DNA from: Gemmatimonadota bacterium
GTDB lineage: Bacteria; Gemmatimonadota; Gemmatimonadetes; Longimicrobiales; RSA9
Assembly: GCA_017881445.1 (NCBI GenBank)
Contig: JADGQX010000007.1
Location: 1-44,970, forward strand
Length of the DNA: 44,970 nt
Reading direction: 5' to 3'
Within the stretch, counting starts at the first letter, position 1, and each line of letters opens with the position of its first letter. The notes beneath the pieces were generated by a model. That model was not told the DNA's origin and did no database searches. It saw only the letters and a list, made by a program, of their open reading frames with translations. The position numbers and the translations under genes are program-made. Positions 20,864-36,584 of this stretch are shown here, in pieces.

Positions 20864-20880
20864 GATGCATTGAACACCAG

Positions 20881-20916
20881 AAAATGGCGCCCGCTTCCTG
20901 CGGGAAGCGGGTGCGC
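20881..20916 (-). terminator. Intrinsic terminator of the kor-nifJ-rnf2 operon
   Basis: On the minus strand CCCGCTTCC, four bases, GGAAGCGGG, extended by GCG/CGC pairs, then CATTTTCT. It lies 12 bp after the stop of the last gene of the operon, and separates it from the rnf1 operon. Confidence 0.75.
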
Positions 20917-20927
20917 GCCTGCCAGGC

Positions 20928-21155
20928 TCAGTTGCGGCTCGGCCCCGGGGGCAGCCCGCCGCGGTGGCGCTCGGCCGCCGCCTTCATTTCGGCGCTGGGG
21001 ACGTCGAAGAGCGGGCAGAGCTCGCCGGTGCACCTGGCGCCGTGGTCGAGGCAGACCGGGGCGCCGCCGGGAGCGTCGAGGGGGGCGCCGTCGTCGCCGA
21101 CCAGGACCTGGATCTCGCGATCGCAGGCGGAGCAGTAGTACTTGCGGGTCCGCAT
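20928..21155 (-). CDS. Small CxxC metal-binding protein (CLxxGxRCTGxxCPxF family), last gene of the operon
   Basis: A 75-residue soluble protein with Cys at 8, 11, 35, 42 and 47. The C8-SA-C11 knuckle plus C35/C42/C47 could bind zinc or a small iron-sulfur centre. The core CLDHGARCTGELCPLF is shared with the 125-residue protein at 37,067-37,444 (CLELGERCTGDMCPIF), and both begin MRT-[RK]-[KR]. I do not recognise the family. ATG 21155 begins one base after the apbE2 stop, with GGAG inside the apbE2 end as SD, so it is translated with the Rnf maturation genes. A role in cofactor maturation or regulation of the complex is inferred only from context. Confidence 0.78.
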   Translation of the reverse strand: MRTRKYYCSACDREIQVLVGDDGAPLDAPGGAPVCLDHGARCTGELCPLFDVPSAEMKAAAERHRGGLPPGPSRN

Positions 21156-21156
21156 G

Positions 21157-22161
21157 TCAGGTCTCCAGGTCCAGGAGCTTGGCGCTGGCGCACAGGCGGG
21201 CCAGCACGGGCGAGACATCGGCTCTGGCCAGGCCGTAAACGGTGCCGCATGCGACGTCCGCATGCATGCAGGTCGGGGCCGCGATGGTGAGGCTGTGGAC
21301 GGGCGTCAGGCGCGGGGCGCCGGTGACGGGGTCCATGATGTGGTGGTAGCGCCGGCCGTGGTACTCGAAGTACTGGATGTAATCGCCCGAGGTGGCGACG
21401 GCGCCGTCGCTCAGGGGGAAGGTGCGGGCGATGCGGCCGGGATTGCGCGGGTCCTGGATGCCGACCTCCCAGTCGTCGCCGCGCTCGGAGTGGCCCATGG
21501 CGTAGAGGTCGCCGCCGGCGTTGACGATGGCGTCCTTGAAGCCGCGGACGCGGATGGCGTCGATGGCGCGGTCGACGGCGTAGCCCTTGGCGATCCCGCC
21601 CAGGTCGAGATGGACGTCGCTCGAGTGGAAGTAGAGGATTGGCTTGCCGGCGCGGCGCTCGAGCTCGACGGCGCGGTACAGGCTGCGCCCGGCCAGGCGT
21701 TCGACCTCGTGCTGCGGCGGCGGCGTGGTGCGGTGCTTGACGTCCCAGAGCGCGCAGACCTTGCCGACGGCGGGGTCCCAGCGGCCGGCCACCCCTTCGG
21801 ACCAGCGCAGCGCCTCGGCTACCACGCGGGCGGTCTCGCCGCCGATCTCCACGGGACGGCCGTGCGCTTCCAGGTTGGCGCGGCCGATGTCCGAGAGACC
21901 GGTGAAGCGGCTCATCGTCCGGTTGACCGTGTACAGCTCCTCGAGGGCGGCGTCGATGGCCGCCTGGGCGCGGGCCTCGTCGGAGGAGACGATGCCGATC
22001 TCGGCGATGGTGCCCATGACCGGGACCGTGCGCCGGATCAGGCGGGGCCTGGCGAACAGGCCACGCGGCAGGACGCTGCCGACGACGAAGGCGCCGACGC
22101 CGAGGGTGATGAACCTGCGCCGGGTGGTGTTGAGCTCCCGGCCTTCCTCAGAGCTGTTCAT
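21157..22161 (-). CDS. apbE: FAD:protein FMN transferase ApbE (rnf2 operon)
   Basis: A 334-residue flavin transferase, paralogue of the copy at 14,209. The Tat-type signal TTRRRFITLGVGAFVVGSVL is followed by PVMGTIAEIGIV, TMSRFTGLSDIG, HLDLGGIAKGYAVDRAID, VNAGGDLYAMGHSERGD and HHIMDPVTGAPR. The expected substrates are Thr203 of RnfG2 and Thr190 of RnfD2. It overlaps the end of the 54-codon NqrM-like gene by 14 bases. Having a second apbE beside each Rnf suggests that each complex is matured by its own transferase, though one could serve both. Confidence 0.92.
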   Translation of the reverse strand: MNSSEEGRELNTTRRRFITLGVGAFVVGSVLPRGLFARPRLIRRTVPVMGTIAEIGIVSSDEARAQAAIDAALEELYTVNRTMSRFTGLSDIGRANLEAHGRPVEIGGETARVVAEALRWSEGVAGRWDPAVGKVCALWDVKHRTTPPPQHEVERLAGRSLYRAVELERRAGKPILYFHSSDVHLDLGGIAKGYAVDRAIDAIRVRGFKDAIVNAGGDLYAMGHSERGDDWEVGIQDPRNPGRIARTFPLSDGAVATSGDYIQYFEYHGRRYHHIMDPVTGAPRLTPVHSLTIAAPTCMHADVACGTVYGLARADVSPVLARLCASAKLLDLET

Positions 22162-22312
22162 GGTGCGACTCCGTCAGGCTGCAGTTTCCATCCTTGGGAC
22201 ATGCGCCGCAGTTGCCGGTCCCCGAGCAACCGCCCGACCTGGGGCGGACGAAGAGGACGAAGCCGACGATCAGGGCGATGCAGAGCCCGATGCCGAAGAG
22301 GGTGTGGATCAT
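22148..22312 (-). CDS. 54-residue NqrM-like single-pass Cys-rich membrane protein
   Basis: Its ATG overlaps the rnfA2 stop (ATGA), and its TGA lies inside the start of apbE2, so it is clearly part of the operon. One membrane helix (residues about 4-22, LFGIGLCIALIVGFVLFV) is followed by Arg and then a Cys cluster GGCSGTGNCGACPKDGNC (C29, C35, C38, C44). Layout and size resemble NqrM, which is needed to mature Na+-NQR by supplying iron for the Cys-ligated centre in NqrD/NqrE. RnfE and RnfA are the homologues of those two subunits, and rnfE2-rnfA2 lie directly upstream. The Cys spacing differs from classical NqrM and also recalls FeoB-associated Cys-rich proteins. The rnf1 operon has no counterpart. 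Confidence 0.75.
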   Translation of the reverse strand: MIHTLFGIGLCIALIVGFVLFVRPRSGGCSGTGNCGACPKDGNCSLTESHHEQL

Positions 22313-22887
22313 GAGCTGAAGAGCCCTCCGAAGCCCATGAAGGCCAGCGAGATACAGCCGGCGATGATCAGGACGATGCCCATGCTGCGGGCGAAGATGG
22401 GCGAGTCGGACAGCTCGACGCGCTCGCGGATGGAGCCCATGAGCGTCAGCGCCAGCGTGAGGCCGAGCCCCGCGCCCAGCGCGAAGGCCACGCCCTGGAT
22501 GAAGTTGTAGCCGCGGTTCGTCTGGAAGAGTGCGAGCCCCAGGATGGCGCAGTTGGTGGTGATCAGCGGGAGGTAGATCCCGAGCTCCCGGAAGAGCGTG
22601 GGGCTGACCTTCTTGACGAACATCTCGACGATCTGCACCAGCGCCGCGATCACCACGATGAAGGCGATGATGCGCAGGTAGGGCGCGTAGCCGAGGACGA
22701 AGCGGTTGAGGAACCAGGCCGCGACGGAGGTAAGCACCAGGACGAAGGTGTCGGCGGCGCCCATGCGCAGCGCCGTGGACACCTTGCCCGTGACGCCCAG
22801 GAAGGAGCAGAGTCCCAGGAAGAGCGTCAGGGTGAAGTTGTTCACCAGGGCCGCCGAGACGAGAATCCAGCTCAGGTCCTTGAGCAT
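22309..22887 (-). CDS. rnfA: Rnf complex subunit RnfA (copy 2)
   Basis: 192 residues, six hydrophobic segments. Cluster-ligand candidates are Cys27 (LFLGLCSFLG) and Cys113 (ITTNCAIL). VNNFTLTLFLGL, RMGAADTFVLVL and SPTLFRELGIYLPL are nearly the same as in copy 1. The start shares one base with the rnfE2 stop (TGATG). Its stop overlaps the start of the NqrM-like gene, which links maturation factor and subunit by translational coupling. Confidence 0.95.
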   Translation of the reverse strand: MLKDLSWILVSAALVNNFTLTLFLGLCSFLGVTGKVSTALRMGAADTFVLVLTSVAAWFLNRFVLGYAPYLRIIAFIVVIAALVQIVEMFVKKVSPTLFRELGIYLPLITTNCAILGLALFQTNRGYNFIQGVAFALGAGLGLTLALTLMGSIRERVELSDSPIFARSMGIVLIIAGCISLAFMGFGGLFSS

Positions 22888-23546
22888 CAGGCGGCCACCT
22901 TTCGGCGGGTGACCACGACGGGCCACAGGCGGACGCGGCGGTGCCCCTTCTTGCGGGCCTTCAGGTAGCTCAGGAAGAGCAGCCAGAAGCCGAGGGCCAG
23001 GAAGCCTCCGGGCGGCAGCATGAAGATGAGCATGGGCTGGAAGTGGGGCCCGAACAGGTGGATGCCGGCGAAGGTGCCGTTGCCCAGGATCTCGCGCACC
23101 GCGGAGACGCACGATAGGCCGAGGGTGAAGCCGATCCCGGTACCGAGCGAATCGAGCACGGAGCGGCCGACGGGCCGCTTCTGGGCGAATGCCTCCATGC
23201 GCCCGAGCAGCACGCAGTTGGCCACGATGAGCGCGATGAAGGCGCCCAATGCCTTGTAGATCGTCGGCGCCAGCGCAGCCACGAACATGTCGGCCAGCGA
23301 GGTGAACGCCGCGATCACCAGGATCGAAGTCGTGATACGGACCTCGTTCGGCACCGATTTCCGGAAGAGCGAGACGAAGAAGGCGGAGCCGACCAGCACG
23401 AACGTGGTGGTGACGCCCATGGAGAAGCCGTTGATGACCGTGTTGGTGACGGCCATGGTGGGGCACATCCCGAGCATCTGGACGAAGGTCGGGTTGTTCC
23501 GCCAGATCGGGTCGACGAAGTCTTCGATCGCGCGCGTGGCCGTCAC
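22887..23546 (-). CDS. rnfE: Rnf complex subunit RnfE (copy 2)
   Basis: 219 residues from a GTG start that overlaps the rnfG2 stop (GTGA), with GGGAGGTGC upstream. The family N-terminus is DPIWRNNPTFVQMLGMCPTM with Cys28; the second Cys is Cys111 (LIVANCVLL). VPNEVRITTSILVIAA and FMLPPGGFLALGFW are typical. The longer frame reaching back to 24,140 reads through rnfG2 in another phase and is not coding. The C-terminus is strongly basic (KARKKGHRRVRLW). Confidence 0.95.
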   Translation of the reverse strand: MTATRAIEDFVDPIWRNNPTFVQMLGMCPTMAVTNTVINGFSMGVTTTFVLVGSAFFVSLFRKSVPNEVRITTSILVIAAFTSLADMFVAALAPTIYKALGAFIALIVANCVLLGRMEAFAQKRPVGRSVLDSLGTGIGFTLGLSCVSAVREILGNGTFAGIHLFGPHFQPMLIFMLPPGGFLALGFWLLFLSYLKARKKGHRRVRLWPVVVTRRKVAA

Positions 23547-24250
23547 CGCGCACCTCCCTGCTGCTGCGTGTAATTCTGGAGCGCGGGGGCCAGCGCCTGG
23601 ACCCGCTTGTTGATGATGGCGATGACCGCCCGCGAGGAGATGGTCGCGCCGGTGATCATGTCCACGGCGTGGGCATTGCCCTGGCCGCGGCCGGCTTTGA
23701 CCCCCTCGATCGGTGTCCTGGGACCCGCGAACTCCTGCACGAAGGCAAGGTCCTTCTCGATCCTGTCGCCGATGCCCGGCGTCTCGCGCTGGTCCACCAG
23801 CTTCATGCCGATGAGCTGCTCCGTGGCCGGGTCGTAGCCGAAAATCAGCTTCAGGTTGTCCTGGAACCCCGGCCCGCTCGCCGGAATGGCGAAGCCGATC
23901 GCCTTGCCCGACTGGTCGTAGCCGACGAAGACCCGGTCGAGCTTGGCCGGATCCGCGCCGGCCGGCGCCGTGGCCGTCAGCGTGCCACCGCTCACGTAGA
24001 GGGGCGTGAAGTGGTCGGGGCCGCGGAGCACCTCGCGCACGGCCGCCTCGGTGAGCATGGCCTGGTGCGCGTCGATGCGCGGCTGCGTCCACTCGAAGGC
24101 CAGCGCGAGCGCGAGCCCGCAGGCCGCGCCGAAGGAGCAAAGGATGAGGATCAGCCTGGAGGGCCGGACATCGGGAGGCGGAGGCGCGTCGGCCGCCATC
24201 TCCGTACTGAGCGAGGCCGATTTCGGGGCGTGGCCGCCGGACACGCTCAT
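23543..24250 (-). CDS. rnfG: Rnf complex flavoprotein subunit RnfG (copy 2)
   Basis: 235 residues: a Ser/Pro-rich N-terminus, a membrane anchor at about 32-52, and the FMN-binding domain. The ApbE motif D197-MITGAT-IS is intact, with Thr203 the predicted FMN site. GFQDNLKLIFGYDPATEQ and ETPGIGDRIEKD match copy 1. ATG 24250 has AGGAGGTGG upstream and overlaps the rnfD2 stop by four bases. Confidence 0.95.
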   Translation of the reverse strand: MSVSGGHAPKSASLSTEMAADAPPPPDVRPSRLILILCSFGAACGLALALAFEWTQPRIDAHQAMLTEAAVREVLRGPDHFTPLYVSGGTLTATAPAGADPAKLDRVFVGYDQSGKAIGFAIPASGPGFQDNLKLIFGYDPATEQLIGMKLVDQRETPGIGDRIEKDLAFVQEFAGPRTPIEGVKAGRGQGNAHAVDMITGATISSRAVIAIINKRVQALAPALQNYTQQQGGAR

Positions 24251-25320
24251 GGCGCCACCTCCTGCCGCCGGCCGCGAGCCGCCGTGCCGAAGACGCGCGG
24301 CTGCGTGGCGCGGTTGATGAACGGCACCATGCAGTTGCCCAGCAGGATCGCGTACATCACGCCCTCGGGCAGGCCGCCCCAGAAGCGGATCAGCACGACC
24401 AGCGCGCCGATGCCGGCGCCGAAGATCCAGCGCCCGGGGTTGGTGACCGGCGCGGTGACCGGGTCGGTGGCCATGTAGAAGGCGCCCAGCATGATGCCAC
24501 CGGAAAAGACCGTGAAGAGCGCACCCGGGTAGCGCGCCGGGACCGCGCCGTGGGCCAGGGCGGCGAACAGCGCCGCGGCGCCCAGCATGGCTGCAGGAAT
24601 GCGCCAGTTCACGTAGCCCTTCCAGATGAGGAACAGCCCGCAGGCGAGGATGACCAGCCCCGCGGTCTCCCCCAGCGAGCCGCCGGTGCTGCCCAGCATG
24701 AGGTTCAGCAGGGGCGTGCCCGCGTGGTCGAACTTCATGAGCCCGAGCGGCGTGGCGCTGGTGATGGCGTCCACCTTCGGCACCTGCATGAAGGGCCACG
24801 CCAGGGTGCTGCGGTGGATCGTCCAGAAATGGCCGCCGGGCGCGGTGAAGCTGGTGATGGCCGTGGGCATGGAGCCCTGCAGGAAGGCGCGGCCGAGCAG
24901 CGCCGGGTTGAACGGGTTCTGGCCCAGACCGCCGAAGAGCGTCTTGCCGATGGCAATGCCGAAGGCGCCGCCCAGCGCCGCCATCCAGAGCGGGAACGCG
25001 GGCGGCAGGCACAGCCCCAGCAGGATGCCCGTGATCACGGCCGAGCCATCGCGCAGGGCGCCGGGCTTGCCGAACGCCTTCTCCACTGCGATGCAGCCCA
25101 TCGTGGCGGCCACGACGACGAGCAGCGCACTGATGCCGAAGAAATAGGCGGACGCGGCCACGATCGGGACCATGGAGGCGATCACGGTCCACATGATCGT
25201 CGTGGTCGTTTCCCGCGACTTGATGTGCGGAGCCGCCGCGATCACCAGGCGATCTTCCGCCTCGGCCTCGGTGGTGTCGCCCGCATCCTCGGGCAGGGGG
25301 CGGTCGAAGATCGTGCTCAT
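24247..25320 (-). CDS. rnfD: Rnf complex flavoprotein subunit RnfD (copy 2)
   Basis: 357 residues, about 17 longer than copy 1 because of an acidic N-terminal extension (PEDAGDTTEAEAEDR). The family core starts at APHIKSRETTTTIMW. DGSAVITGILLGLCLP, GGLGQNPFNPALLGRAFLQ and FWGGLPEGVMYAILLGN are conserved. The FMN site is AITSATPLG with Thr190. It overlaps rnfC2 and rnfG2 by four bases at each end. Confidence 0.95.
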   Translation of the reverse strand: MSTIFDRPLPEDAGDTTEAEAEDRLVIAAAPHIKSRETTTTIMWTVIASMVPIVAASAYFFGISALLVVVAATMGCIAVEKAFGKPGALRDGSAVITGILLGLCLPPAFPLWMAALGGAFGIAIGKTLFGGLGQNPFNPALLGRAFLQGSMPTAITSFTAPGGHFWTIHRSTLAWPFMQVPKVDAITSATPLGLMKFDHAGTPLLNLMLGSTGGSLGETAGLVILACGLFLIWKGYVNWRIPAAMLGAAALFAALAHGAVPARYPGALFTVFSGGIMLGAFYMATDPVTAPVTNPGRWIFGAGIGALVVLIRFWGGLPEGVMYAILLGNCMVPFINRATQPRVFGTAARGRRQEVAP

Positions 25321-26639
25321 GCCGCCGCCTCTTTCCGCCGCCGAACCGCGCCCTTGCTCAGCGAGAACATCTGCGAGAGCGGCAGGCCGGAGGGACAGAC
25401 GTAGGAGCAGGAGCCGCAGAGCATGCAGTCCGCCAGGTGCGCCGCGACCATCTCGTCGTGGCGGCCGAGCTGCGCCAGCGCGGCCAGCTTCTCCGGGTTG
25501 AGGAAGACCGGACACGCCTCCAGGCAGCGGCCGCAGTGGATGCACGGCAGCGCCGGCTTCCTCACGATCTCATCGAGCGTCAGGGCGATGATCCCGGTCG
25601 TCCCCTTCACCACGGGCGCATCCAGGTTCGGCTGGACCACGCCCATCATGGGGCCGCCGAACACCACCTCGCGGGCCGCCGGCGTGAGGCCGCCGCAGTA
25701 CTCGAGCACGTCCCGGATGCGCGCGCCCACCGGCACGATCAGGTTGGCCGGCTTCGCCACCCCCAGGCCGCTGACGGTCACGATGCGCTCGACCAGCGGC
25801 AGGCCGGTCTCGAAGACCTCGGCGATGCAGGCCGCGGAACCGACGTTCTGCACCAGCACCCCCAGGTGCACCGGCAGCTTGCCCGAGGGTACCTCCTGCC
25901 CCGTCACCGATCGGATCAGCATCTTCTCCGCGCCCTGCGGATACTTCACGGTCAGGGGCAGGACCGTGATGTCGAGGCCCGCGGGCACGGCGCGCCGGAG
26001 CGCCTCGATAGCGTCGGGCTTGTTCTTCTCGACGCCGATCACCGCCTTCGGCACGTCCAGCGACGCCATCATGATCTGCACGCCGAAGATCACCCGCTCC
26101 GGGAACTCCACCATGGTCCGGTGGTCGCTGGTCAGGTACGGCTCGCACTCGGCGCCGTTGATGACCAGCGTGTGGACGGTGGTGCCCTCGGGGGGGACCA
26201 GCTTCACGTGGGTGGGGAAGGCCGCGCCGCCCAGGCCGACCACGCCGGCCCGGCGCACCGCTTCCACCACCTCCTCGCGGGAAAGCCCCTGCCATTCCGG
26301 GACCATCCGGGGTCGGGGTATCTGCGGAGAGTAGCGGTCCACCGCGAGGAGCACCGCCTCCTGCATGTTGCCGTCGGGATGCGGGTAAAGGCCGACCGCC
26401 TTGATCACCCCGGCCGCCGAGGCGTGGATGGGTGAGGACACCCACCCATCCGCCTCCGCGATCACGTCACCACGCTGCACCTGCTGGCCCAGCCGGACCC
26501 GCAGCTTCGCGGGCTTCCCCGCATGCTGCTTCAGCGGCAGCACCAGCTCCTCCGGATACGGCATCCGCCTGAGCGGAACCTGCGCGGTCAACTCCTTGGC
26601 GTCCGGCGGGTGGACGCCGTGTTGGAACCCGAATCTCAT
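25317..26639 (-). CDS. rnfC: Rnf complex NADH-binding subunit RnfC (copy 2)
   Basis: 440 residues with the same layout as copy 1: GVHPPDAKELTA, VVGLGGAAFPTHVKL, INGAECEPYLTSDHRTM, and two [4Fe-4S] motifs at C366/C369/C372/C376 and C405/C408/C411/C415. The start at 26,639 is 37 bp after the nifJ stop. Here nifJ is inserted between rnfB2 and rnfC2, whereas in the rnf1 operon the two genes are adjacent. Confidence 0.95.
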   Translation of the reverse strand: MRFGFQHGVHPPDAKELTAQVPLRRMPYPEELVLPLKQHAGKPAKLRVRLGQQVQRGDVIAEADGWVSSPIHASAAGVIKAVGLYPHPDGNMQEAVLLAVDRYSPQIPRPRMVPEWQGLSREEVVEAVRRAGVVGLGGAAFPTHVKLVPPEGTTVHTLVINGAECEPYLTSDHRTMVEFPERVIFGVQIMMASLDVPKAVIGVEKNKPDAIEALRRAVPAGLDITVLPLTVKYPQGAEKMLIRSVTGQEVPSGKLPVHLGVLVQNVGSAACIAEVFETGLPLVERIVTVSGLGVAKPANLIVPVGARIRDVLEYCGGLTPAAREVVFGGPMMGVVQPNLDAPVVKGTTGIIALTLDEIVRKPALPCIHCGRCLEACPVFLNPEKLAALAQLGRHDEMVAAHLADCMLCGSCSYVCPSGLPLSQMFSLSKGAVRRRKEAAA

Positions 26640-26676
26640 CGGTGTTGCTCGCCTCCAGCCGCTGCCCGCTTCTGCT

Positions 26677-29600
26677 TCAATTGAACGGCTTCGCCCGCTC
26701 GGTCCACTTGGCCAGGTCCTTCTCCTTGGGGTTGATCGGCGTCCCGGGGTGGATGATCCCCGCCGGGCAACGCTCCGCCGCCTGGACCATCTGGGCGAAC
26801 GTCCCCGCCTTGATGTCCTTGATGACGGCCTGCTTGGCCGGGTTGTACGTGAACAGCTTCTTGTTCAGGTTCGTGCACTCGTTGCAGGTCGTGCAGCGCT
26901 CCGACTCGATGTAGGCCTCCATGCCCATCTCGTCGGCCACGGCCGTTGCGGTCGACGCCGCTGCCGCGGGCGCCGGCGCAACCGCGGGCGCGGCAGCAGC
27001 CACGGGCGCGGCGGCCGGCGCTGGCGGGGCGCTGGGGCTCGCGGGCCCCGCGGCCGCGGGCGGTGTCCCATCGGCTCCAGGCGTCTGCACGCCCGGCACG
27101 GCCACCGACTCCTCCACCTTCTTCAGCAGCTCCGCCACCGTCTGGGTCCCGCCCGTGGTGGCGCGCAGCAGCCCTTCGGCAATGCTGCGAGCGATGATCT
27201 GCGGGTACTCGGCCTTGAGCTGGATCAGCTTGGCCTCGTACTCGACCCTCAGGTCGTCGGCGCGGGTGTCGAACTCGCCCTGGAGCTCGTCGGCGATCGC
27301 GTCCCGGACCGTCTGCGCCGGCTTGACGCCCGCCAGCTCGAGCAGCTGCGACCAGAAGCTCAGCCGGTCCTCGGCCAGCAGGACCATCTCCCGCGAGACC
27401 GACATGCGGCCGAGGTGCTTCTCCGCGTCCAGCACCTGAATGAAGGGGAACTTGCCCTCACGCTCGTCCGCCGGCAGCGCCATGTAGTCGTGGAACACCA
27501 CCATGTCCTCGTTCCACTCCTCGGGCTTGACCTTCTTGAAGTGCTTCTTGAAGCGCACCTCGGTGGCGGCCCAGTCGGCGATCGTCATGGGCAGCTCGAT
27601 CGTCTGCTTCTCGCCGGCGTCGTCCACGTACTCCAGGTCGTAGGTCGGCCAGATCTCGTCCAGTGACGGGTTGCCGTCCAGCGACAGGCACTCGGCCACG
27701 CTGGTGCCCGCGTCCGGATCGTAGCGCAGGATCGGGAAGGCCCGGCTCTCCATGGCCATGCGCGCGGCCCGGGGCGCGAAGTCGTCCGCCAGGCCGTGCT
27801 CGACCGGGCAGGGCGTGTAGATGTTGAAGATCGCTGGCCGCCGCACCTGCAGCCCACGCAGCACGCCCGAGAGCAGGTGGGCGGGCGTGGCCTGCGACGT
27901 CTGCAGCACGTAGGTGCCGCGGTGCGCCAGCGCGATGAGCGCGATCTCCTTGCGCACTTCCTGCTTGCCGTGCTGCGCCGTGCCGTAGCCCGACATGTCG
28001 GCCACCTGGCCCGTGAAGCCGCTGGTGCAGGCCTGGCCACCCGTGTTCGAGTAGACCTGCGTGTCCAGGATCATGGCCCGGATCGGCTTCCCCGACGCCA
28101 TCATGCGCGAGAGGTTCTGGAACCCGATGTCGAACATGGCGCCGTCACCGCCGATCGCCATGATCGGCGGGCAGAGGCCGAACTCCACGTCGTCGAACTG
28201 GCGCCAGTCGAAGGTCTTGAAGAACGGCTCGTGCTCGGTCGCGTCGTAGCCGTCCTCGGCCAGGAGCTTGGCGCGGCGGATGGCGACGAAGGCGTCGGCC
28301 ATCTTGCGCATCTGCCCCTCGAACAAGCCGACCGCCACCGAGGGCGAGTCCTGGAACAGGTGGTTGGCCCAGGGGAACGGATACGGGTTGAAGGGGAACG
28401 TGCTCGCCCACACCGAGGAGCAGCCCGTGCTGTTGGCGATGCCCAGCGGGGCGCGACCGCGACCGCTGGGTCCCTCCACGTAGCGCCAGCGCAGGTCCTT
28501 CAGCTGGTGCAGCGCCCGGTTCAGCAGGCCGAGCTGCTCGTGGGCGGCCTCGTCCACCGGCACCTGCACCGCCGACACGGCCGTGGCGGCGGCGTCGAGG
28601 TCCGCTCCGGCGGCGAGGAGCGAGCGCGCCTTGCCATCGAGAACGCCGATCAGCTCGTCCAGGTGAGCGACTAGCTTCGCCACCCGGGGCTGCATCAGCG
28701 CTTCGACGGCGGATACGACCAGGTGGACCGAGGTCTTCTCGCCGCAGCCCATGCACGCGCCGTCCCCGCCCGCCATCGAGCGGTAGGTGTCCTTCTTGAG
28801 GAGCAGCATCGGCAGCACGCCGATCCCTTCCTCGATGTTCGAGACCGAGATGAAGCGGGTGTCGGTGTCCGGCAGCTCCTGCCAGAACTCCCAGTTCCTG
28901 CGCAGCTTCTCGACCGTCTTCTCTTCCTGCTTCACCGTCACCAGCGCCTGCTCGGGGCAGACCGCCACGCAGACGTTGCAGCCCTTGCACGCTTCCGGAT
29001 TGATGGTGATCGACAGCAGCCCGCCCGAGCCCGCCACCTTGGACTCCGGGCCGTCGAAGAAGGGCGCCGTGCGCGTGAACGGGAATTCAGCGACCTGCTC
29101 GATGGCCAGCTTGAACTCCTCGTCCAGCGACTTCCGCTTCTGTGCGTCATAGCCCAGCTTGTCCGCCACGCCCGTGTAGGCCGCCTGCAGCACGGGGCCG
29201 AAGCTGCTGAAGCGCCCGGCCTTGACCTGCTTCGTGACCTCCTTGGCCACGTGCTTCGAGACCTGCTTGGCCAGGTTCAGCGGGCGGCCCGCCTTGACGC
29301 CCGCCACGCGCACCGCCGTCTCGACCACCTGCTCGGGCGTGTTGACCAGCCCGGGAATGGCCGCATCGGGGCACTGCGTCCAGCACTGGTTGCAGCCCGT
29401 GCACTTCTCCGCCACGAACTCCGGCACCTCCATGCGGATCCCGGTCATGTCCCGGAAGGCGCTGCTGACGGCCGGCATCACGGACACGGCCGCGAACGGG
29501 TCGGCGATCGGGTCCATGCCCGTGGCGTAGGAGGTGCAGACCTGCTCCCAGAAGCGACCCGGGTTGCCGAAGCCCTGCTCGGCATCCGGCAGGTCCATGA

Positions 29601-31851
29601 GCGCCGGGATGTTGGCCGTGCGCAGCTGGGCCTGCACGTCGTCGCCCACCTTGCCCGGCGTCACCGTCTTGACCTCGTCATAGCCGCGGCGGATGACGCG
29701 CAGGTTGTCCCCCACCACGCGCTCGCCCAGCTTGCCGAACTTCTTGCGCAGCTGCGCCTCGATGCCGCCGAAAACCCTGGCTTCGTCCAGCCCCTCGCGC
29801 TCCGCCAGCGGCGCGGTGCGGAAGAAGGCGCCCATGAAGGCCGCGCCCTGCATGCGATAGCGCAGCTCGACGTCGGAGGCCTCGTCGCCGGCAATGGCGA
29901 AGCCGTCCAGGCCGTAGACCTTGATCTCGCGGTCGATGATGTCCTGCTGCGCCGAGGGCGGCAGCGAGGCCCAAAGCTCCGCGGGCGTCTGGTCGCTCTG
30001 GATCACGAACACGCCGCCCTTTGCCAGCCCGGCCAGCGGATCGGAGTGGCGGAACACGTTCGGGTCGGGCGAGAGCACCACGTTCACGTGCTTCAGCTCG
30101 CCGTTCAGCTTCAGGGGGTGGTGCGAGAACGTGGCGTAGAAGGTGGTGGGCTGCCCCTTCTTCTCCGAGCCGTACTTCGGGTTGGCCTTGATGTTCAGCC
30201 CGGCCAGCTCGTACGCCGTCATCGCCACGTTCTTGCCCATGGTGATCGCGCCCCAGCCGCCCACGGAGTGGATCCGCAGCGCCGTGACGTCTTCGGGCAG
30301 GATGTTCAGGTTGCCGGCGGACTCCAACGCCAGGTCGGCCAGGTGCGGATACGCCTCCAGCAGCTGCTCCTGCCAGATCTGCAGCTTGGGAATGCGCGTG
30401 CCCTTCCGGATGAACTCGATGCCCAGGTAGAACTGCCGCTGCCTCTTGCCGCCCGGCAGCATGTTCTCCACCGCGGCCACCAGGTCGCCCGGCTGCAGGT
30501 CGCGGCTGCCGAAGCCGAAGCCGCCCGAGTAGAAGTCGGGCATTTCCTCAGGCTTGATGCAGGCGAGCCCGGGGAACGGCACCTTGCCGTTGCCGTTCTC
30601 GGCCTTGGCCGAGCCGTTGCCTCGACCCAGGATGCCGAGGCCTCGGGATTCGTTGCGTCCTCGCGTCGCCGCGTCGCCGTTGGCGGCGCGACCGTTCTCC
30701 GTGGCCTGCGCCAGGGCGGCCCGGATCTCGCGCATGAGCGGCGGATCGACGGCCAGCGGCTGGTCGGTGCGCTCCAGCACGACCACGCCCTTCTTGCCCT
30801 GCAGCAGCCTGGTCACCAGGTCCGCCGGGAAGGGGCGGAACATGGTCATGTTCAGCACGCCGACCCTGAGGTCCTTCTTCTCCCGCAGGTAGTCCGCCGT
30901 GGCCTCGGCGTTCGCGACCACGGAGCCCTGCCCCGCGATCACGTAGTCGGCGTCGTCCAGCCGGTAGCCGGTGGCGCGGGCGTACTCACGGCCCGTCAGC
31001 GCGGCGAACTCCGCCATGGCCCGGTCGGCCAGCGGCGCGACGTGGTCGAAGTAGAACGGCCGCTGCGCCGCCACGCCCTGGGCGTACGAGTCCTGGTTCT
31101 GGACCGTGCCGATCATGGCGGGATAGTCGAAGTCGTACAGCTCGGGGATCCGCCGCCGGGTCGGACCGAAGACCATCTTCTGCGCCGGCGTCGGGCACTC
31201 GATCGTGTCCGCCGGGTCGCCCAGGTACTCCTTGATCAGCTCGCGCTCCGGCAGCAGGATCGACTCGATGACGTGGCTGGTGAGGAAGCCGTCCTGCGCG
31301 ATCAGCCCCGGGTTCAGCGCCAGCTCGGCGATGCGGTGCGCGATCAGGTTCAGGTCCGCGCTCTCCTGCACGTCCTTGGCGAAGAGCTGGAAGAACCCGG
31401 TGTCGTCCACGGCGTGGTAGTCGTCGTGGCCGGCATGCACGTTCAGCGAGTGCTTGGTCATGGCGCGCGCGGCTACGTTCAGCACGTACGTCAGGCGCTT
31501 GCCCACGGCCGCGTACAGCGACTCGTGCATGTAGGCGATGCCCTGCCCGCTGGAGAAGTTGGTCGCGCGCAGACCGGTCATGCTCATGCCGGCGGTCACG
31601 GCCGCGGCGGCATGCTCGCCCTCGGGCTCGAAGAACAGCAGCGGCCGGCCGTTCACGTTGGTCTTGCCGGCCGATACCGCCAGCGCCCAGCCCTCGCCCA
31701 TCTGGGTGGAGGGCGTGATGGGATACGCGCCAGCCGCCTCGCTGGCCGCGGTCTCCATCGCGACGATGGCGTCCGAGCCGTCCATCGCTTCCGACGTTCC
31801 CGGATACTGCGGCGGCCGCGGAGCGGCCTCGTCGTTCTTGCGCGTACGCAT
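26677..31851 (-). CDS. nifJ: NifJ-type pyruvate:ferredoxin (2-oxoacid) oxidoreductase, extended form
   Basis: Oxidises pyruvate or a related 2-oxoacid with CoA to an acyl-CoA, CO2 and reduced ferredoxin. 1,724 residues, against about 1,170-1,200 for usual NifJ. In order: alpha/pyrimidine domain (ETAASEAAGAYPITPSTQMG), domain II, a Gly/Asn-rich linker (about 382-422), gamma domain (about 530-720, VGGWGAITMGKNVAMTAYEL), two [4Fe-4S] motifs (CTGCNQCWTQCPD about 817; CKGCNVCVAVCPEQ about 954), and the TPP domain (CMGCGEKTS about 1034; IGGDGAMFDIG about 1237; YSNTGGQ). After that come about 230 extra residues, an Ala/Pro-rich linker (about 1584-1638), and a C-terminal region with CTTCNEC and CPAGIIHPG that looks like a built-in ferredoxin-type domain. 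ATG 31851 is five bases after the rnfB2 stop. The substrate is not proven. Confidence 0.92.
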   Translation of the reverse strand: MRTRKNDEAAPRPPQYPGTSEAMDGSDAIVAMETAASEAAGAYPITPSTQMGEGWALAVSAGKTNVNGRPLLFFEPEGEHAAAAVTAGMSMTGLRATNFSSGQGIAYMHESLYAAVGKRLTYVLNVAARAMTKHSLNVHAGHDDYHAVDDTGFFQLFAKDVQESADLNLIAHRIAELALNPGLIAQDGFLTSHVIESILLPERELIKEYLGDPADTIECPTPAQKMVFGPTRRRIPELYDFDYPAMIGTVQNQDSYAQGVAAQRPFYFDHVAPLADRAMAEFAALTGREYARATGYRLDDADYVIAGQGSVVANAEATADYLREKKDLRVGVLNMTMFRPFPADLVTRLLQGKKGVVVLERTDQPLAVDPPLMREIRAALAQATENGRAANGDAATRGRNESRGLGILGRGNGSAKAENGNGKVPFPGLACIKPEEMPDFYSGGFGFGSRDLQPGDLVAAVENMLPGGKRQRQFYLGIEFIRKGTRIPKLQIWQEQLLEAYPHLADLALESAGNLNILPEDVTALRIHSVGGWGAITMGKNVAMTAYELAGLNIKANPKYGSEKKGQPTTFYATFSHHPLKLNGELKHVNVVLSPDPNVFRHSDPLAGLAKGGVFVIQSDQTPAELWASLPPSAQQDIIDREIKVYGLDGFAIAGDEASDVELRYRMQGAAFMGAFFRTAPLAEREGLDEARVFGGIEAQLRKKFGKLGERVVGDNLRVIRRGYDEVKTVTPGKVGDDVQAQLRTANIPALMDLPDAEQGFGNPGRFWEQVCTSYATGMDPIADPFAAVSVMPAVSSAFRDMTGIRMEVPEFVAEKCTGCNQCWTQCPDAAIPGLVNTPEQVVETAVRVAGVKAGRPLNLAKQVSKHVAKEVTKQVKAGRFSSFGPVLQAAYTGVADKLGYDAQKRKSLDEEFKLAIEQVAEFPFTRTAPFFDGPESKVAGSGGLLSITINPEACKGCNVCVAVCPEQALVTVKQEEKTVEKLRRNWEFWQELPDTDTRFISVSNIEEGIGVLPMLLLKKDTYRSMAGGDGACMGCGEKTSVHLVVSAVEALMQPRVAKLVAHLDELIGVLDGKARSLLAAGADLDAAATAVSAVQVPVDEAAHEQLGLLNRALHQLKDLRWRYVEGPSGRGRAPLGIANSTGCSSVWASTFPFNPYPFPWANHLFQDSPSVAVGLFEGQMRKMADAFVAIRRAKLLAEDGYDATEHEPFFKTFDWRQFDDVEFGLCPPIMAIGGDGAMFDIGFQNLSRMMASGKPIRAMILDTQVYSNTGGQACTSGFTGQVADMSGYGTAQHGKQEVRKEIALIALAHRGTYVLQTSQATPAHLLSGVLRGLQVRRPAIFNIYTPCPVEHGLADDFAPRAARMAMESRAFPILRYDPDAGTSVAECLSLDGNPSLDEIWPTYDLEYVDDAGEKQTIELPMTIADWAATEVRFKKHFKKVKPEEWNEDMVVFHDYMALPADEREGKFPFIQVLDAEKHLGRMSVSREMVLLAEDRLSFWSQLLELAGVKPAQTVRDAIADELQGEFDTRADDLRVEYEAKLIQLKAEYPQIIARSIAEGLLRATTGGTQTVAELLKKVEESVAVPGVQTPGADGTPPAAAGPASPSAPPAPAAAPVAAAAPAVAPAPAAAASTATAVADEMGMEAYIESERCTTCNECTNLNKKLFTYNPAKQAVIKDIKAGTFAQMVQAAERCPAGIIHPGTPINPKEKDLAKWTERAKPFN

Positions 31852-31856
31852 GTCGT

Positions 31857-32708
31857 TCAGCTCCCCAGCCGGGCGGACGGTTCGTCCATTCCGGCGAATT
31901 GCGCTCCCTCGACCCAGGCGATGGCGCCCGTCGGACAGCGCTTGATGGCTTCGATGCTCTCGAGATGAACCAGGTCGTAGTCGATCACCGGCAGCCGCCC
32001 GCCCATCTGCATGGTGATGAGCCCCGGCTCCGCGTCCGCGGCGCAGCGCCCGCAGGCGTTGCAGGCCACCGCGCAGGCGGCCGTCGCGACCACCCCTTCC
32101 AGCAGGCTCTTGCACTGCACCAGCAGGTGCGCTTCCAGCGGCAGGATGGTGAAGAGCCCCTGCGGGCAGGCGCTGACGCAGTCGCCGCAGGCCGTGCACA
32201 TGTCGGGGTCGACGAGCGGCAACCCCGTTCTGCTCATGTAGATGGCGTCAAAGCTGCAGGCCACGGCGCAATCGGCCATGCCCACGCAGCCCCAGGAGCA
32301 GGCCTTGCCCCCGCCGCTCACCGCCAGGGCGGCGGCGCAGCTCTCGACGCCCCGGTACTCCACCCGGCGCTGGGCCACGTCGGTCCCGCCCGCGCACAGC
32401 AGCCGGGCGACCCGCTTCTGCGCCTCACCCGCATCGATGCCCAGGAATGCCGCTATGGACTCGCGCCCATCTTCCGAAGACACCGTGCACGAGGCCGGCT
32501 TGGCCCGCCGCAGCACGATCTGCTCGGCCAGTCCACGACAGCCCGGAAAACCGCACGCCCCGCAGTTGGCGCCGGGCAGCATGGCCACGATCTCGTCGAT
32601 ACGCGGATCCTCCCAGACCCGCAACTTGATACTGCACAGCGATATAACGATGGCCAGGACAGCGGAAATGCCTGACAGAATCCCGACCCCGATCAGGATC
32701 GTTTGCAC
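31857..32708 (-). CDS. rnfB: Rnf complex iron-sulfur subunit RnfB (copy 2)
   Basis: 283 residues: membrane helix (about 4-25), [4Fe-4S] domain C49/C52/C57/C74 (CGACGFPGC), and two ferredoxin motifs (CTACGDCVSACPQG and CNACGRC). A shared RnfB segment, CGGTDVAQRR-like with GGGKACSWGCVGMADCAVAC, adds more Cys. It ends WVEGAQFAGMDEPSARLGS and has its own stop, unlike copy 1. It is placed directly before nifJ, with a five-base gap, so the ferredoxin-accepting Rnf subunit is made next to the enzyme that reduces ferredoxin. Confidence 0.95.
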   Translation of the reverse strand: MQTILIGVGILSGISAVLAIVISLCSIKLRVWEDPRIDEIVAMLPGANCGACGFPGCRGLAEQIVLRRAKPASCTVSSEDGRESIAAFLGIDAGEAQKRVARLLCAGGTDVAQRRVEYRGVESCAAALAVSGGGKACSWGCVGMADCAVACSFDAIYMSRTGLPLVDPDMCTACGDCVSACPQGLFTILPLEAHLLVQCKSLLEGVVATAACAVACNACGRCAADAEPGLITMQMGGRLPVIDYDLVHLESIEAIKRCPTGAIAWVEGAQFAGMDEPSARLGS

Positions 32709-32720
32709 GGCTTCAGCTCC

Positions 32721-33722
32721 TCACATCCCCGGTACGGCGGCCTGCTGTAGCAGCCAGGCCGCGAGCTTGTCCGCCAGCGTCGGTCCCACGGGGGCCGGCC
32801 CGCCATCCAGCGCCAGGAGCGCCGGGGCGTTCACACGGGCGAGCGAAGCGAGCTGGCGCAGCTCCTCGACCTGCTGCGCCGCGGTGTAACGGCCGAGCGC
32901 CTGCTTGGGCTCCTCGGCCGGCAGCGTGCCCACCGACAGCCGCGCCGGCAGCGTCGAGCCGGCGGCGGGGTCGTGGACGAACTGGACGGCGCCCTGGGCG
33001 ATGACGGCGCCGACCGCCGCGCCGGCGACCGTGGACAGCCCCTTGAGGCCGCCCGCGTCCGACGCCTGGATCACGAACACTCCGGGCGTGATCAGCCGGA
33101 CCAGCGCCGCCGGCGGGGCCGGCGTGCGCACGACCAGCACGATCTTCTGGCTGCCCAGCAGCAGCTCCGCCAGGCCGCCCACCTGCAGGTCGGCCCCCGC
33201 CATGGCCAGCACCAGCGGCGGCGCGAGCTCGCGCTCCGCCCGCGTCCAGAGCGCCGGCGGGAAGCTCTCAAGGTAAGCGGCGTGATCCGTCTCGCGGAAG
33301 CGCCCCCCCCGCACCAGCTCCACCACGCGGGCGGCGCCGAAGGCGCGGCCGGCGCGGGCCAGCGCCGCGTTGGCGGCATTGCGCAGGTCGGCCCCCGCGG
33401 GCACGTCCGCCTGGAAGTACCGGTCGTCCGCGCCGGCGGCCTCGCCCAGCACGGCCTGGGCGCGACCGAGCCATTCCAGGGCGCTGGCGTCCAGCGGCTC
33501 GGCGCCGCCGAAAAGCGCGCCGAAGCGGGAGGTATCGATGCGCCCGGTGGCGAAGGGGCCCAGCTCGCGGGCGGCGCGCTCGGCGGCGCCGTCGGCCGGC
33601 GCGCGATGCGCCGCCACGAAGCCGCGCACCTCCTCCGCCGCCGCGGCCACGGCCGCGCGGAACGTCTCGCGCGCGCCGGCCAGCGCCTCCAGCGCCTGCG
33701 GGACCCGGTCGTCAGACGGCAT
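32721..33722 (-). CDS. Unknown protein, possibly a degenerate oxidoreductase TPP-domain paralogue
   Basis: A 333-residue soluble, Ala-rich protein without Cys or signal peptide; no named family recognised. Part of it can be laid by eye on the NifJ TPP domain of the same operon: PLVLAMAGADLQVGGLAELL against PIMAIGGDGAMFDIGFQNLS, and PGVFVIQASDAGGLKGLSTV against RGTYVLQTSQATPAHLLSGV. In this protein the GDG...N/YSNTGG thiamine-diphosphate residues are missing, so it would not be catalytic; a scaffold or assembly role is a guess. It overlaps korB by 11 bases and ends 12 bases before rnfB2, between the two oxidoreductase-related blocks. That the gene is real is well supported by coupling and codon phase. 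The similarity is weak and needs a profile search. Confidence 0.65.
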   Translation of the reverse strand: MPSDDRVPQALEALAGARETFRAAVAAAAEEVRGFVAAHRAPADGAAERAARELGPFATGRIDTSRFGALFGGAEPLDASALEWLGRAQAVLGEAAGADDRYFQADVPAGADLRNAANAALARAGRAFGAARVVELVRGGRFRETDHAAYLESFPPALWTRAERELAPPLVLAMAGADLQVGGLAELLLGSQKIVLVVRTPAPPAALVRLITPGVFVIQASDAGGLKGLSTVAGAAVGAVIAQGAVQFVHDPAAGSTLPARLSVGTLPAEEPKQALGRYTAAQQVEELRQLASLARVNAPALLALDGGPAPVGPTLADKLAAWLLQQAAVPGM

Positions 33723-34665
33723 AGCGGTCGAGCTCCTCGTTCATGAGCCGGATCTTCTCCTCCACCGTGCGCTGCGGCAGCGCCCGGATCAGGTCGTAGC
33801 GCGGCCGCGATTCATCCTGGAAGAAGATCCCCAGCCGGATCACGTCCGAGGCCTCCGCCAGTCGCCGCGCCTCGTCCAGGTCGCGCGGGTCGTGACGCCG
33901 CTGATTCGTGTAGAGCCTGTCCAGCTCCGGCACCGTGAGGCCGTTCTCGTGCACCAGCAGCTCAACGATGGACGGCTTGCGCACGGCCTCCTTGTAGATC
34001 GAGTCCGTGTACTGCGGGCAGCGCTGGAGGATGCGGACGAAGGAGAAGCCCTTGTGGTGGTAGGCCGCGCGCAGGGTGGCGTAGAGGTGTGCGGGCACCC
34101 ACTCGGCGGTCTGCGCCACGAAGGAGGCATTGGTGACCCCCAGCGTCGCCTGGATCGGGTCCAGCGCCGGCAGCCAGCTCCCCCGGGGCGCGGTGTTGCT
34201 GGCGAAGCCCTGCGGCGTGGTCGGCGAGCTCTGCTTCTTGGTCAGACCGTAGATGTTGTTGTCCATCAACAGCGCCGTCACGTCGATGTTGTAGCGGATC
34301 ATGTGCAGCCAGTGCGCGGCACCGATGCTGGTGCAGTCGCCGTCGCCCATGGCGACGAAGACCGTCAGCTCCGGCCGGCTCAGCTTCACGCCCGTCGCCA
34401 CCGGCAGCGCGCGGCCATGGATGCCGTGGAAGCCGTAGGCCTTCATGTAGTGCGGGAAGCGGCTGGAGCAGCCGATCCCCGAGACGAAGACCGTCGTCTC
34501 GGGGACGAACTGCTCCGCCACCGCCAGCCGTTGCATGGCGGTCAGCACGGAGAGGTCGCCGCAGCCCGGGCACCAGCGCGGCTCCGCGCCCTCCCAGTCG
34601 TGCAGATCGAAGACGCGGTCGTCCTCTTCCGCGCCCGTCCAGAGCAGCGAGCAGCCCGCACTCAC
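33712..34665 (-). CDS. korB: 2-oxoglutarate (2-oxoacid):ferredoxin oxidoreductase beta subunit
   Basis: A 317-residue TPP-binding subunit. Motifs are RWCPGCGDLSVL (C32/C35), SGIGCSSRFPHYM with the third cluster Cys, the TPP/Mg site MGDGDCTSIGAAH, and LLMDNNIYGLTKKQSSPTT. The beta subunit carries one [4Fe-4S] and passes electrons to ferredoxin. The GTG start overlaps the korA stop (GTGA), with GGGAGG upstream. The substrate is taken as 2-oxoglutarate from similarity to KorAB of aerobic and microaerobic bacteria; a branched 2-oxoacid or pyruvate is possible. Confidence 0.9.
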   Translation of the reverse strand: MSAGCSLLWTGAEEDDRVFDLHDWEGAEPRWCPGCGDLSVLTAMQRLAVAEQFVPETTVFVSGIGCSSRFPHYMKAYGFHGIHGRALPVATGVKLSRPELTVFVAMGDGDCTSIGAAHWLHMIRYNIDVTALLMDNNIYGLTKKQSSPTTPQGFASNTAPRGSWLPALDPIQATLGVTNASFVAQTAEWVPAHLYATLRAAYHHKGFSFVRILQRCPQYTDSIYKEAVRKPSIVELLVHENGLTVPELDRLYTNQRRHDPRDLDEARRLAEASDVIRLGIFFQDESRPRYDLIRALPQRTVEEKIRLMNEELDRYAV

Positions 34666-36584
34666 CTGGCACCTCCCTGGGGAACGTTGGCGCGGATCAC
34701 ATCGACCAGCGTGGCGGGCCTGAGCGGCTCGCCCAGCACCCGGGTCCAGCAGTCCACGTCCACCAGCGTGCTGGCGCGCAGCAGGAAGGAGAGCTGGCCC
34801 CGTCGCCGATTCTCCTCGGTGATGTACGGCGCCGTCGGGTCGTCGCTGTAGTTGATCTCGACCGTCATGACCTTCTTGAACTTCGAGAAGATCTGCTTCA
34901 GACCCGGCTGCAGGGGCGAGAGGAAGCTCAGGTGGGTCGAGGAGACCGACAGCCCCTCTCCTCGCGCCTGCTCCACCGCCTCCTCGATCGCGCCGCGCGT
35001 GCTGCCCCAGCCCACCAGCAGCAGGTCGCCGCCGTCCGCGTCGCCCGTCACCACGGGCGGCTGCAGCATCTCCTGCAGCACCGCCAGCTTGCGGGAGCGC
35101 ATCGCCGAGCTGTGCTGGTACATCTTCTGGTCATACGTCAGCTTGCCGTTCTCGTCGTGGTGCAGCCCCGTCACGATGTGCATCCCCCCGGGCTGCCCCG
35201 GAATGAAGCGCTGCGACAGCCCCGTGCGCGCATCCCAATCGAACGGCCGCAGCCCTTCCGGCACGGGCGACTGGTCCGGCGGCGGCGAGAACCACTCGGG
35301 CCGCGGCTCCGGGCGCGGGAACGGCTGGACCCCCGTGGCCAGGTTCGCGTCCGAGAGCACCAGCACCGGCACGCGGAACGCATCCGCGATCCGCCGCGCC
35401 GTGATCATGACGTGGAAGCACTCCTCGATCGTCGCCGGCGCCAGCACCACCTTGGGCGTGTCCCCCGGCTGGCCGAACACAGCCGCCAGCAGGTCCGACT
35501 GCTCCACCTTCGTCGGCAGTCCCGTGCTCGGGCCGCCCCGCTGCACGTCCACGATCACCAGCGGCACCTCGATCATCGTCGCCAGCCCGATGAACTCCGT
35601 TTTCAGCGCCAGCCCCGGACCCGAGGTGATGGTGAAGGCGCACTTGCCGGCGTACGACGCACCGATGGCGACGCCAATGGCCGCGATCTCGTCCTCCGCC
35701 TGGTGCACCACCCCGCCGTAGCTCTCGAACACGTCGCTCAGGTGGTGCGACACCGACGTCGCCGGCGTGATCGGGTACATCGCCGCCAGCTCCATCCCCG
35801 AGGCGATCCCGCCCAGCGCCAGCGCCTGGTTGCCGTTCATCACCACCATCGCCTGGCCTACCGGCGCCGCCGGAACCTGGATGCGGAAGTCCAGGTGCTC
35901 CGACGCCCACTTCACCCCCAGATCCAGCAGCGCGATGTTCGCCTCGTAGACCTCCGCCGACTTCTTGCGGAAGGTGTACGCGATCTGCTCACGCACCAGC
36001 TCCAGGTCCCGGTCGTAGATCCAGGCCAGCAGACCCAGCGCGAACATGTTCTTGCCCTTCCGCGCGTTCTCCACCACGGTCAGGCACTGCTCCTCCATCG
36101 GGACTTCGATCACCCGGTAGTGCGCCGTGGCCAGCTGCGCCATCGCCGAAGCCCACGCCTTCCGGATGTCCTCATCCTCGTGCGTCGCCCACATGTTCTC
36201 GACCAGGATCACCGCGTCGTCCGCGAACGCCCCGATCTCGTGCCGCGACAGCAGAACCTGCTCGTTGAACGCCACCACCAGGTTCGTCCGGTCACCCCAG
36301 TTCGTCACCTGCGCCGAGGAGATCCGGATCCGGTTCCCGCTCGCGCCCGCCGGCGTCCGCGCCGGCGGCTGGATCTCCGCCGGGATGATCTCCACCGTCC
36401 AGGCGCCGTTCCCCATCTTCGCCGACACCGTCCCGAACGCCTGACCGCACTTCTGCGCGCCCTCGCCCGAGTCCGAGAGGATCTCGACCGTGTGCTCGCT
36501 GCAGCGGTGCACGACCGGCTCCGCGCCGCTCGTATCCGCCTCCGCAGCCGCCACCCCGGCCTCCGCCTTGATCGTCGTCACCAT
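34662..36584 (-). CDS. korA: 2-oxoglutarate:ferredoxin oxidoreductase, fused gamma-alpha subunit
   Basis: 640 residues. The N-terminal gamma domain (about 85-230, ISSAQVTNWGDRTNLVVAFN ... MFALGLLAWIYDRD) is fused to the alpha domain (about 245-600) with NGNQALALGGIASGMEL, MYPITPATSVSHHL, GVVHQAEDEIAAIGVAIGA, TSGPGLALKTEFIGLA and VDVQRGGPSTGLPTKVEQ. Gamma-alpha fusions are typical of KorAB-type enzymes. The first 70 or so residues (with HRC and GAQKCGQAF) are unlike standard gamma subunits and their role is unknown. ATG 36584 follows GAGAGGTGG; a GTG 12 bases upstream is an alternative start. It is the first gene of the long operon, with a divergent CxxC gene upstream. Confidence 0.9.
   Translation of the reverse strand: MVTTIKAEAGVAAAEADTSGAEPVVHRCSEHTVEILSDSGEGAQKCGQAFGTVSAKMGNGAWTVEIIPAEIQPPARTPAGASGNRIRISSAQVTNWGDRTNLVVAFNEQVLLSRHEIGAFADDAVILVENMWATHEDEDIRKAWASAMAQLATAHYRVIEVPMEEQCLTVVENARKGKNMFALGLLAWIYDRDLELVREQIAYTFRKKSAEVYEANIALLDLGVKWASEHLDFRIQVPAAPVGQAMVVMNGNQALALGGIASGMELAAMYPITPATSVSHHLSDVFESYGGVVHQAEDEIAAIGVAIGASYAGKCAFTITSGPGLALKTEFIGLATMIEVPLVIVDVQRGGPSTGLPTKVEQSDLLAAVFGQPGDTPKVVLAPATIEECFHVMITARRIADAFRVPVLVLSDANLATGVQPFPRPEPRPEWFSPPPDQSPVPEGLRPFDWDARTGLSQRFIPGQPGGMHIVTGLHHDENGKLTYDQKMYQHSSAMRSRKLAVLQEMLQPPVVTGDADGGDLLLVGWGSTRGAIEEAVEQARGEGLSVSSTHLSFLSPLQPGLKQIFSKFKKVMTVEINYSDDPTAPYITEENRRRGQLSFLLRASTLVDVDCWTRVLGEPLRPATLVDVIRANVPQGGAR

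Follow-up and report, generated by a model that had tools for sequence, protein, structure and literature searches.

A divergent pyruvate:ferredoxin oxidoreductase with a tethered ferredoxin inside an Rnf operon: a candidate dedicated electron route in Gemmatimonadota and other bacteria

Introduction

Does a pyruvate:ferredoxin oxidoreductase (PFOR) whose gene lies inside an Rnf operon pass its electrons directly to that Rnf complex? The usual view is that free ferredoxin connects these two enzymes. The question is raised by a locus of a Gemmatimonadota bacterium (assembly GCA_017881445.1, contig JADGQX010000007.1) in which thirteen genes on the minus strand run in the order korA-korB-X-rnfB-nifJ-rnfCDGEA, followed by the genes for a small cysteine-rich protein, ApbE and a CxxC protein. 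The window analyzed here is the whole stretch of 44,970 nucleotides, which is one entire contig of a 4.75 Mb genome assembled in 420 contigs. It was determined that NifJ, the PFOR encoded by this locus, carries its own ferredoxin domain and is linked to one lineage of Rnf over several phyla, and the locus is probably a dedicated PFOR-Rnf unit.

A PFOR gene between rnfB2 and rnfC2 was described in the Solemya velum symbiont by Dmytrenko et al. (2014), and pyruvate was proposed there as an Rnf donor (PMC4287430). The position of the PFOR gene in that rnf2 operon is the same as in the window, and the relevant passages of the paper make no mention of gene X, of kor genes, of a tethered ferredoxin or of a linkage throughout a clade. 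No earlier report of the tethered ferredoxin, the clade-wide nifJ-rnf linkage or gene X was found in searches of an open-access library.

Results

Conservation of the nifJ-rnf linkage

According to the initial annotation, its reading would fail if this gene order were conserved in no relative. Close relatives were located with RnfB, RnfC and NifJ-fragment queries, and the order was found to recur, contrary to that refuting condition. A Gemmatirosa plasmid carries korA-korB-X-rnfB-nifJ-rnfC-rnfD-rnfG-apbE-rnfE-rnfA with protein identities of 44-71%, and the kor-X-rnfB-nifJ-rnf order was seen again in six Gemmatimonadota relatives (three long loci and three fragments on short contigs).

For a survey across phyla, a genome collection was scanned with the NifJ alignment alone and the best 80 of 397 candidates were examined. 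Among the loci selected in this way, rnfC lies directly downstream of nifJ in 59 of the 60 that have enough flank, and in the 60th the two genes are separated by a 7.6 kb insertion. The rnfB gene is located just 5' of nifJ in 46 of 68 loci and past rnfA in 14 loci, mostly from Bacteroidota. According to the record titles, the carriers belong to the Gemmatimonadota, Bacteroidota, Gamma- and Betaproteobacteria, Acidobacteria, Planctomycetes, Myxococcota, Hydrogenedentota and Calditrichales, and many of them come from metagenome bins and may be misnamed. Carriers that are isolates include Algoriphagus kandeliae, Allomuricauda profundi, Sedimenticola hydrogenitrophicus, Ectothiorhodospira magna and Cecembia rubra. 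The cluster resides on megaplasmids of ~1.1 Mb in both Gemmatirosa (L002) and Persicobacter (L016).

Within 298 Gemmatimonadota genomes, this type of rnfC is present in 59, this NifJ in 59, and both in 57. In 42 of these 57 genomes the two genes are same-strand neighbors, and in 13 they lie on separate draft contigs. In the two genomes where they appeared far apart the break falls inside nifJ, with korA-korB-X-rnfB and the 5' part of nifJ on one side and the 3' part of nifJ and rnfC on the other; one of these breaks sits at a run of N. Two further genomes appeared to have rnf only, and in these the contig edge carries the 3' end of nifJ. All 59 genomes with this rnfC thus carry this type of nifJ, directly upstream where the assembly can show it. 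The two genomes with nifJ only hold an orphan gene (L111 in genome G074) and a fragment at a contig end (G226).

Other types of Rnf and NifJ are arranged differently. The Rnf of the Gemmatimonadota family f11 is of another kind (about 43% identity), and the ordinary short NifJ that several of its members have is encoded on other contigs. Nine records of a plasmid collection contain a short nifJ-type gene together with an rnfC relative, and in each the distance between them exceeds 100 kb. Additionally, in a set of 248 genomes from the order to which Allomuricauda belongs, RnfC occurs in 7, Allomuricauda included, and this type of NifJ in the Allomuricauda genome only; Rnf in general therefore does not require this NifJ. 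Chance adjacency was rejected on the linkage statistics within the Gemmatimonadota and across the 60 testable loci, and an assembly artifact was rejected as the same order is found in independent contigs and complete replicons. These results support a near-obligate genomic partnership between NifJ and one Rnf lineage.

NifJ and its tethered ferredoxin

NifJ contains the Pfam domains POR_N, PFOR_II, POR, two Fer4 and TPP_enzyme_C in a single chain. The 12 cysteines of three 4Fe-4S clusters and the thiamine pyrophosphate (TPP) residues D1236 and N1269 are invariant in 77 sequences, and alignment to solved PFORs gives the same cluster ligands and TPP site. Because all of these residues are invariant in its relatives, NifJ is probably active, as a divergent PFOR. 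The conserved residues T46, E77 and R129 are compatible with a PFOR and fall short of proving that pyruvate is the substrate. The domain order, the TPP site and the ligands of the three clusters are shared with the homodimeric PFOR/NifJ structures 6cin, 7plm and 1b0p, which we take to be the PFORs of Moorella and Desulfovibrio africanus. Solved PFORs are about 1,170-1,230 residues long, whereas the NifJ of the window has extra regions and a tethered ferredoxin that bring it to 1,724 residues.

The C-terminal ~75 residues of NifJ form a ferredoxin-I-type domain with four conserved cysteines (CxxCxxC...C) that matches Fer4_15 and Fer4_13 in Pfam and ferredoxin I (1dax, E 4.9e-5) in a PDB search. 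This domain is present in 69 of 70 complete NifJ homologues and is joined to the body by a linker of 30-104 residues. Identity is 64% in the body and 58% in the ferredoxin domain, versus 24% in the linker. In the AlphaFold2 (AF2) model, the predicted local distance difference test score (pLDDT) is about 45 for the linker and about 97 for the ferredoxin domain, which predicts a disordered linker and a well-folded domain.

Two sets of NifJ proteins from genomes without this Rnf served as controls. The long NifJ of a second clade (L107-L110, from four Gemmatimonadota genomes) are about 1,600 residues long with 33-34% identity, have no rnf genes nearby and do not contain the ferredoxin domain. The domain is also absent from the orphan L111, a member of the first clade that likewise has no rnf. 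Both controls thus connect the ferredoxin domain with Rnf. At the L111 locus rnf, kor, X and the ferredoxin domain have been lost and the downstream CxxC gene has been retained.

KorAB and gene X

KorA scores 522.6 bits with TIGR03710, above the cut-off of 482.75, and KorB scores 226.8 bits with TIGR02177, below the cut-off of 261.9. The nearest solved chains are 6n2n_A and 5b46_B. KorAB carries no tethered ferredoxin. The order korA-korB-X-rnfB is invariant in every Gemmatimonadota-type locus that could be tested. In two Algoriphagus genomes korA-korB also adjoins rnfB (L045 21265-24066 and L062 21274-24075), apparently as a distinct case of Kor being associated with nifJ-rnf.

Gene X was found in Gemmatimonadota-type loci only, each time between korB and rnfB. 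The initial annotation had left its product as an unknown, and this holds insofar as no significant relative was found in Pfam, NCBIfam or the PDB and a genome scan with gene X alone as the query gave 0 matches. Part of the protein, however, resembles the TPP domain of NifJ without its cofactor motifs: a segment of 51 residues aligns with an hhalign score of 53 and a probability of 78%, in comparison to scores of at most 21 for the other proteins of the operon and for reversed controls, and a second segment is weak and collinear. Gene X has no conserved cysteines, and a TPP motif was not seen by eye. Its AF2 model is confident (pLDDT 84.7), and a Foldseek search of this model against the PDB returned nothing significant. 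On these observations we hypothesize that gene X may derive from the TPP domain (domain VI) of a PFOR, be cofactor-less and act as an adaptor.

Rnf subunits and a second Rnf operon

The locus encodes a complete set of RnfA, B, C, D, G and E with their Pfam domains, as well as ApbE. By eye, candidate motifs for flavin attachment are found in RnfD2 (ITSATPL) and RnfG2 (ITGATIS), and RnfA2 and RnfE2, the subunits in which Rnf complexes have paired membrane cysteines, contain at least two cysteines each. The small cysteine-rich protein had been labeled NqrM-like, a name without Pfam support: neither the window protein nor seven relatives gave a match to Pfam NqrM. A small cysteine-rich protein with one membrane segment, often with an NCGC...C motif, follows rnfA in most of the loci L023-L101, and in some Gemmatimonadota-type loci it has a weak FeoB-associated match.

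A second Rnf operon, rnfB1 C1 D1 G1 E1 A1 apbE1, lies directly downstream (14209-20404, minus strand). The possibility that rnf2 is a recent copy of rnf1 was rejected: RnfC1 clusters with other relatives than RnfC2 does, and the second operon is therefore no recent tandem copy. The rnfB1 gene has no in-frame stop before rnfC1, and the reading frame continues uninterrupted over 1,081 residues to the end of rnfD1 (17159-20404, minus strand). This could be due to a length error in a run of G near 19,520 or to a past deletion between rnfB1 and rnfC1.

Operon layout

The initial annotation had described 13 genes on one strand between 20,928 and 36,584 with overlaps or gaps of no more than 37 bp and with nifJ inserted between rnfB and rnfC. 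The layout was re-derived and agrees with this description, and the place of nifJ follows from the gene order and the Pfam identities. All 13 open reading frames are intact, with a start, a stop and no internal stops, and the successive intergenic gaps are -4, -11, 12, 5, 37, -4, -4, -4, -1, -4, -14 and 1 bp. This spacing suggests that the genes form a single operon (Table 1). The terminator that had been placed at 20,881 coincides with a strong hairpin; its U-run is short. A sigma-70 promoter scan gave 0 sites in the window, which is uninformative because the genome is 70% GC, and an Rfam search of the window found no RNA families.

Table 1. Features of the kor-nifJ-rnf locus, in window coordinates
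Feature	Coordinates	Strand	Evidence or remarks
korA, 640 aa, fused gamma-alpha subunit of 2-oxoacid:ferredoxin oxidoreductase	34662..36584	-	POR_N, POR; TIGR03710 above cut-off
korB, 317 aa, TPP/4Fe-4S subunit	33712..34665	-	TPP_enzyme_C, PFO_beta_C
gene X, 333 aa, overlaps korB	32721..33722	-	profile resemblance to part of NifJ TPP domain
gene X segment 121-171, resembling NifJ residues 1181-1231	33210..33362	-	hhalign
rnfB2, 283 aa	31857..32708	-	FeS, Fer4
nifJ, 1,724 aa, long and divergent PFOR ending in a ferredoxin domain	26677..31851	-	Pfam, alignments
NifJ linker, residues about 1563-1646, Ala/Pro-rich	26914..27165	-	hypervariable, predicted disordered
NifJ tethered ferredoxin-I-type 4Fe-4S domain, residues about 1647-1724	26680..26913	-	Cys 1653, 1656, 1659, 1695
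rnfC2, 440 aa	25317..26639	-	RnfC_N, Complex1_51K, SLBB, Fer4
rnfD2, 357 aa	24247..25320	-	NQR2_RnfD_RnfE
rnfG2, 235 aa	23543..24250	-	FMN_bind
rnfE2, 219 aa	22887..23546	-	Rnf-Nqr
rnfA2, 192 aa	22309..22887	-	Rnf-Nqr
small Cys-rich protein, 54 aa, one membrane helix	22148..22312	-	position after rnfA conserved
apbE2, 334 aa, flavin transferase	21157..22161	-	ApbE
CxxC protein, 75 aa	20928..21155	-	kept downstream in several relatives
hairpin past last gene, possible terminator	20865..20930	-	-30.5 kcal/mol, z -2.4

Discussion

The recurrence of the pairing in many phyla suggests that electrons are handed straight to Rnf with no freely diffusing carrier. From the observed linkage and domain structure we infer how the PFOR-Rnf unit docks, its substrate and its direction. 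The tethered ferredoxin would swing between the exit cluster of the PFOR and RnfB, and pyruvate, CoA and NAD+ would be converted to acetyl-CoA, CO2 and NADH in a reaction coupled to ion pumping and without reliance on the free ferredoxin pool. In the reverse mode the unit would act as an ion-gradient-driven pyruvate synthase; the oxidative direction is favored slightly. In the Gemmatimonadota, KorAB would provide a second 2-oxoacid input and gene X would probably be an adaptor. The initial annotation had proposed a dedicated route from both pyruvate and 2-oxoglutarate to Rnf. Its pyruvate part is well supported by the conserved linkage and by the tethered ferredoxin, which that annotation had missed. 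A channel common to KorAB and NifJ is weaker because KorAB lacks a tether and its tight linkage is confined to Gemmatimonadota-type loci. A far-reaching version, in which a swinging-arm PFOR is docked on Rnf as a pyruvate:NAD+ oxidoreductase ion pump (or an ion-driven pyruvate synthase) without any diffusible ferredoxin and gene X docks KorAB to form a 2-oxoacid-Rnf supercomplex in the Gemmatimonadota, is rather unlikely.

Several observations weigh against a dedicated unit. NifJ scores 392.7 bits with the NCBIfam PFOR equivalog TIGR02176, for which the cut-off is 911.35, and therefore belongs to a divergent clade outside that equivalog. The association with KorAB is mainly limited to the Gemmatimonadota. 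The tree distances of NifJ and RnfC are correlated (r = 0.905), which speaks for the unit but may reflect shared descent alone. The orphan L111 may have lost its ferredoxin domain and rnf in one deletion, and this control therefore counts only once. The Solemya velum symbiont has its ferredoxin domain outside the NifJ reading frame (L089 14090-14876), which points to either a frameshift or a free-standing ferredoxin. Lastly, the genome also encodes a 2-oxoglutarate dehydrogenase, E1 components and haem-copper oxidases. Because of these dehydrogenases and oxygen reductases the PFOR-Rnf unit would be an addition and not the sole route, and it may serve reductive carboxylation or metabolism when oxygen is scarce.

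Three other explanations were considered. If the genes were only co-regulated, NifJ, KorAB and Rnf would be separate enzymes acting on a free ferredoxin pool, and the C-terminal domain would be a fourth relay cluster to soluble ferredoxin or flavodoxin. It is general knowledge that PFOR and Rnf of fermenters work via diffusible ferredoxin with their genes unlinked; the nifJ-type and rnfC genes of the plasmid-collection controls are unlinked as well, and KorAB shares the operon without a tether. However, across several phyla this type of NifJ is almost invariably linked to rnf, the long NifJ in genomes without this Rnf have no tether, and ordinary PFORs need no such domain, so that co-regulation alone is improbable. 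Separation may instead concern only KorAB and gene X, which in the Gemmatimonadota could be a module of their own that shares just a promoter with nifJ-rnf, leaving NifJ-Rnf as the functional unit. The absence of korAB-X from most nifJ-rnf loci outside the Gemmatimonadota and the lack of a tethered ferredoxin in KorAB make this a credible if less likely alternative, to be set against the invariant korA-korB-X-rnfB order with its overlapping genes, the adjacency of korA-korB to rnfB in the two Algoriphagus genomes and the resemblance of gene X to part of NifJ.

The third explanation accepts the dedicated PFOR-Rnf unit and turns it mainly around: the ion gradient and NADH would let Rnf pass electrons to the tethered ferredoxin, from which NifJ would make pyruvate (and KorAB 2-oxoglutarate) by reductive carboxylation, for example during growth on acetate or a stored polymer. 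Many carriers are, judging by record titles and what is generally known of their physiology, aerobic or sulfur-oxidizing bacteria with strong proton gradients, and for the oxidative steps the genome of the window encodes a 2-oxoglutarate dehydrogenase and E1 dehydrogenases as well as oxidases. Additionally, the Rnf of Azotobacter operates in reverse (PMC12174285), and carboxylation by PFOR in heterotrophs was proposed for the Kentron symbionts (PMC6593406), without a shown link to this type of NifJ. On the other hand, oxidative electron flow from PFOR to Rnf is energetically downhill, and gene content alone does not settle the direction. Operation mainly in reverse is thus a real possibility, short of probable.

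The proposed PFOR-Rnf unit can be compared with known systems. The pyruvate:NADP+ oxidoreductase of Euglena and Cryptosporidium is a PFOR fused to a C-terminal flavin reductase and so has its own electron acceptor. In the NifJ of the window, the acceptor is instead a ferredoxin-I domain, and it is paired with a membrane ion pump and not with an NADPH-forming reductase. The complete RnfABCDGE set and ApbE are shared with the Rnf of Rhodobacter, Acetobacterium, Clostridium and Azotobacter, from which the operon in the window differs by the PFOR gene inside it and by korAB-X upstream.

If the dedicated unit is real, a widespread PFOR with its own ferredoxin, encoded almost only in rnf operons, would give an ion pump an electron supply line of its own. 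The carriers are largely aerobic or facultative bacteria, in which free low-potential ferredoxin would presumably be easily lost to oxygen, and a private line could explain the role of Rnf and PFOR in aerobes. Cultured strains, among them Gemmatirosa kalamazoonensis, Algoriphagus and Sedimenticola, would also make direct electron channeling into Rnf open to test.

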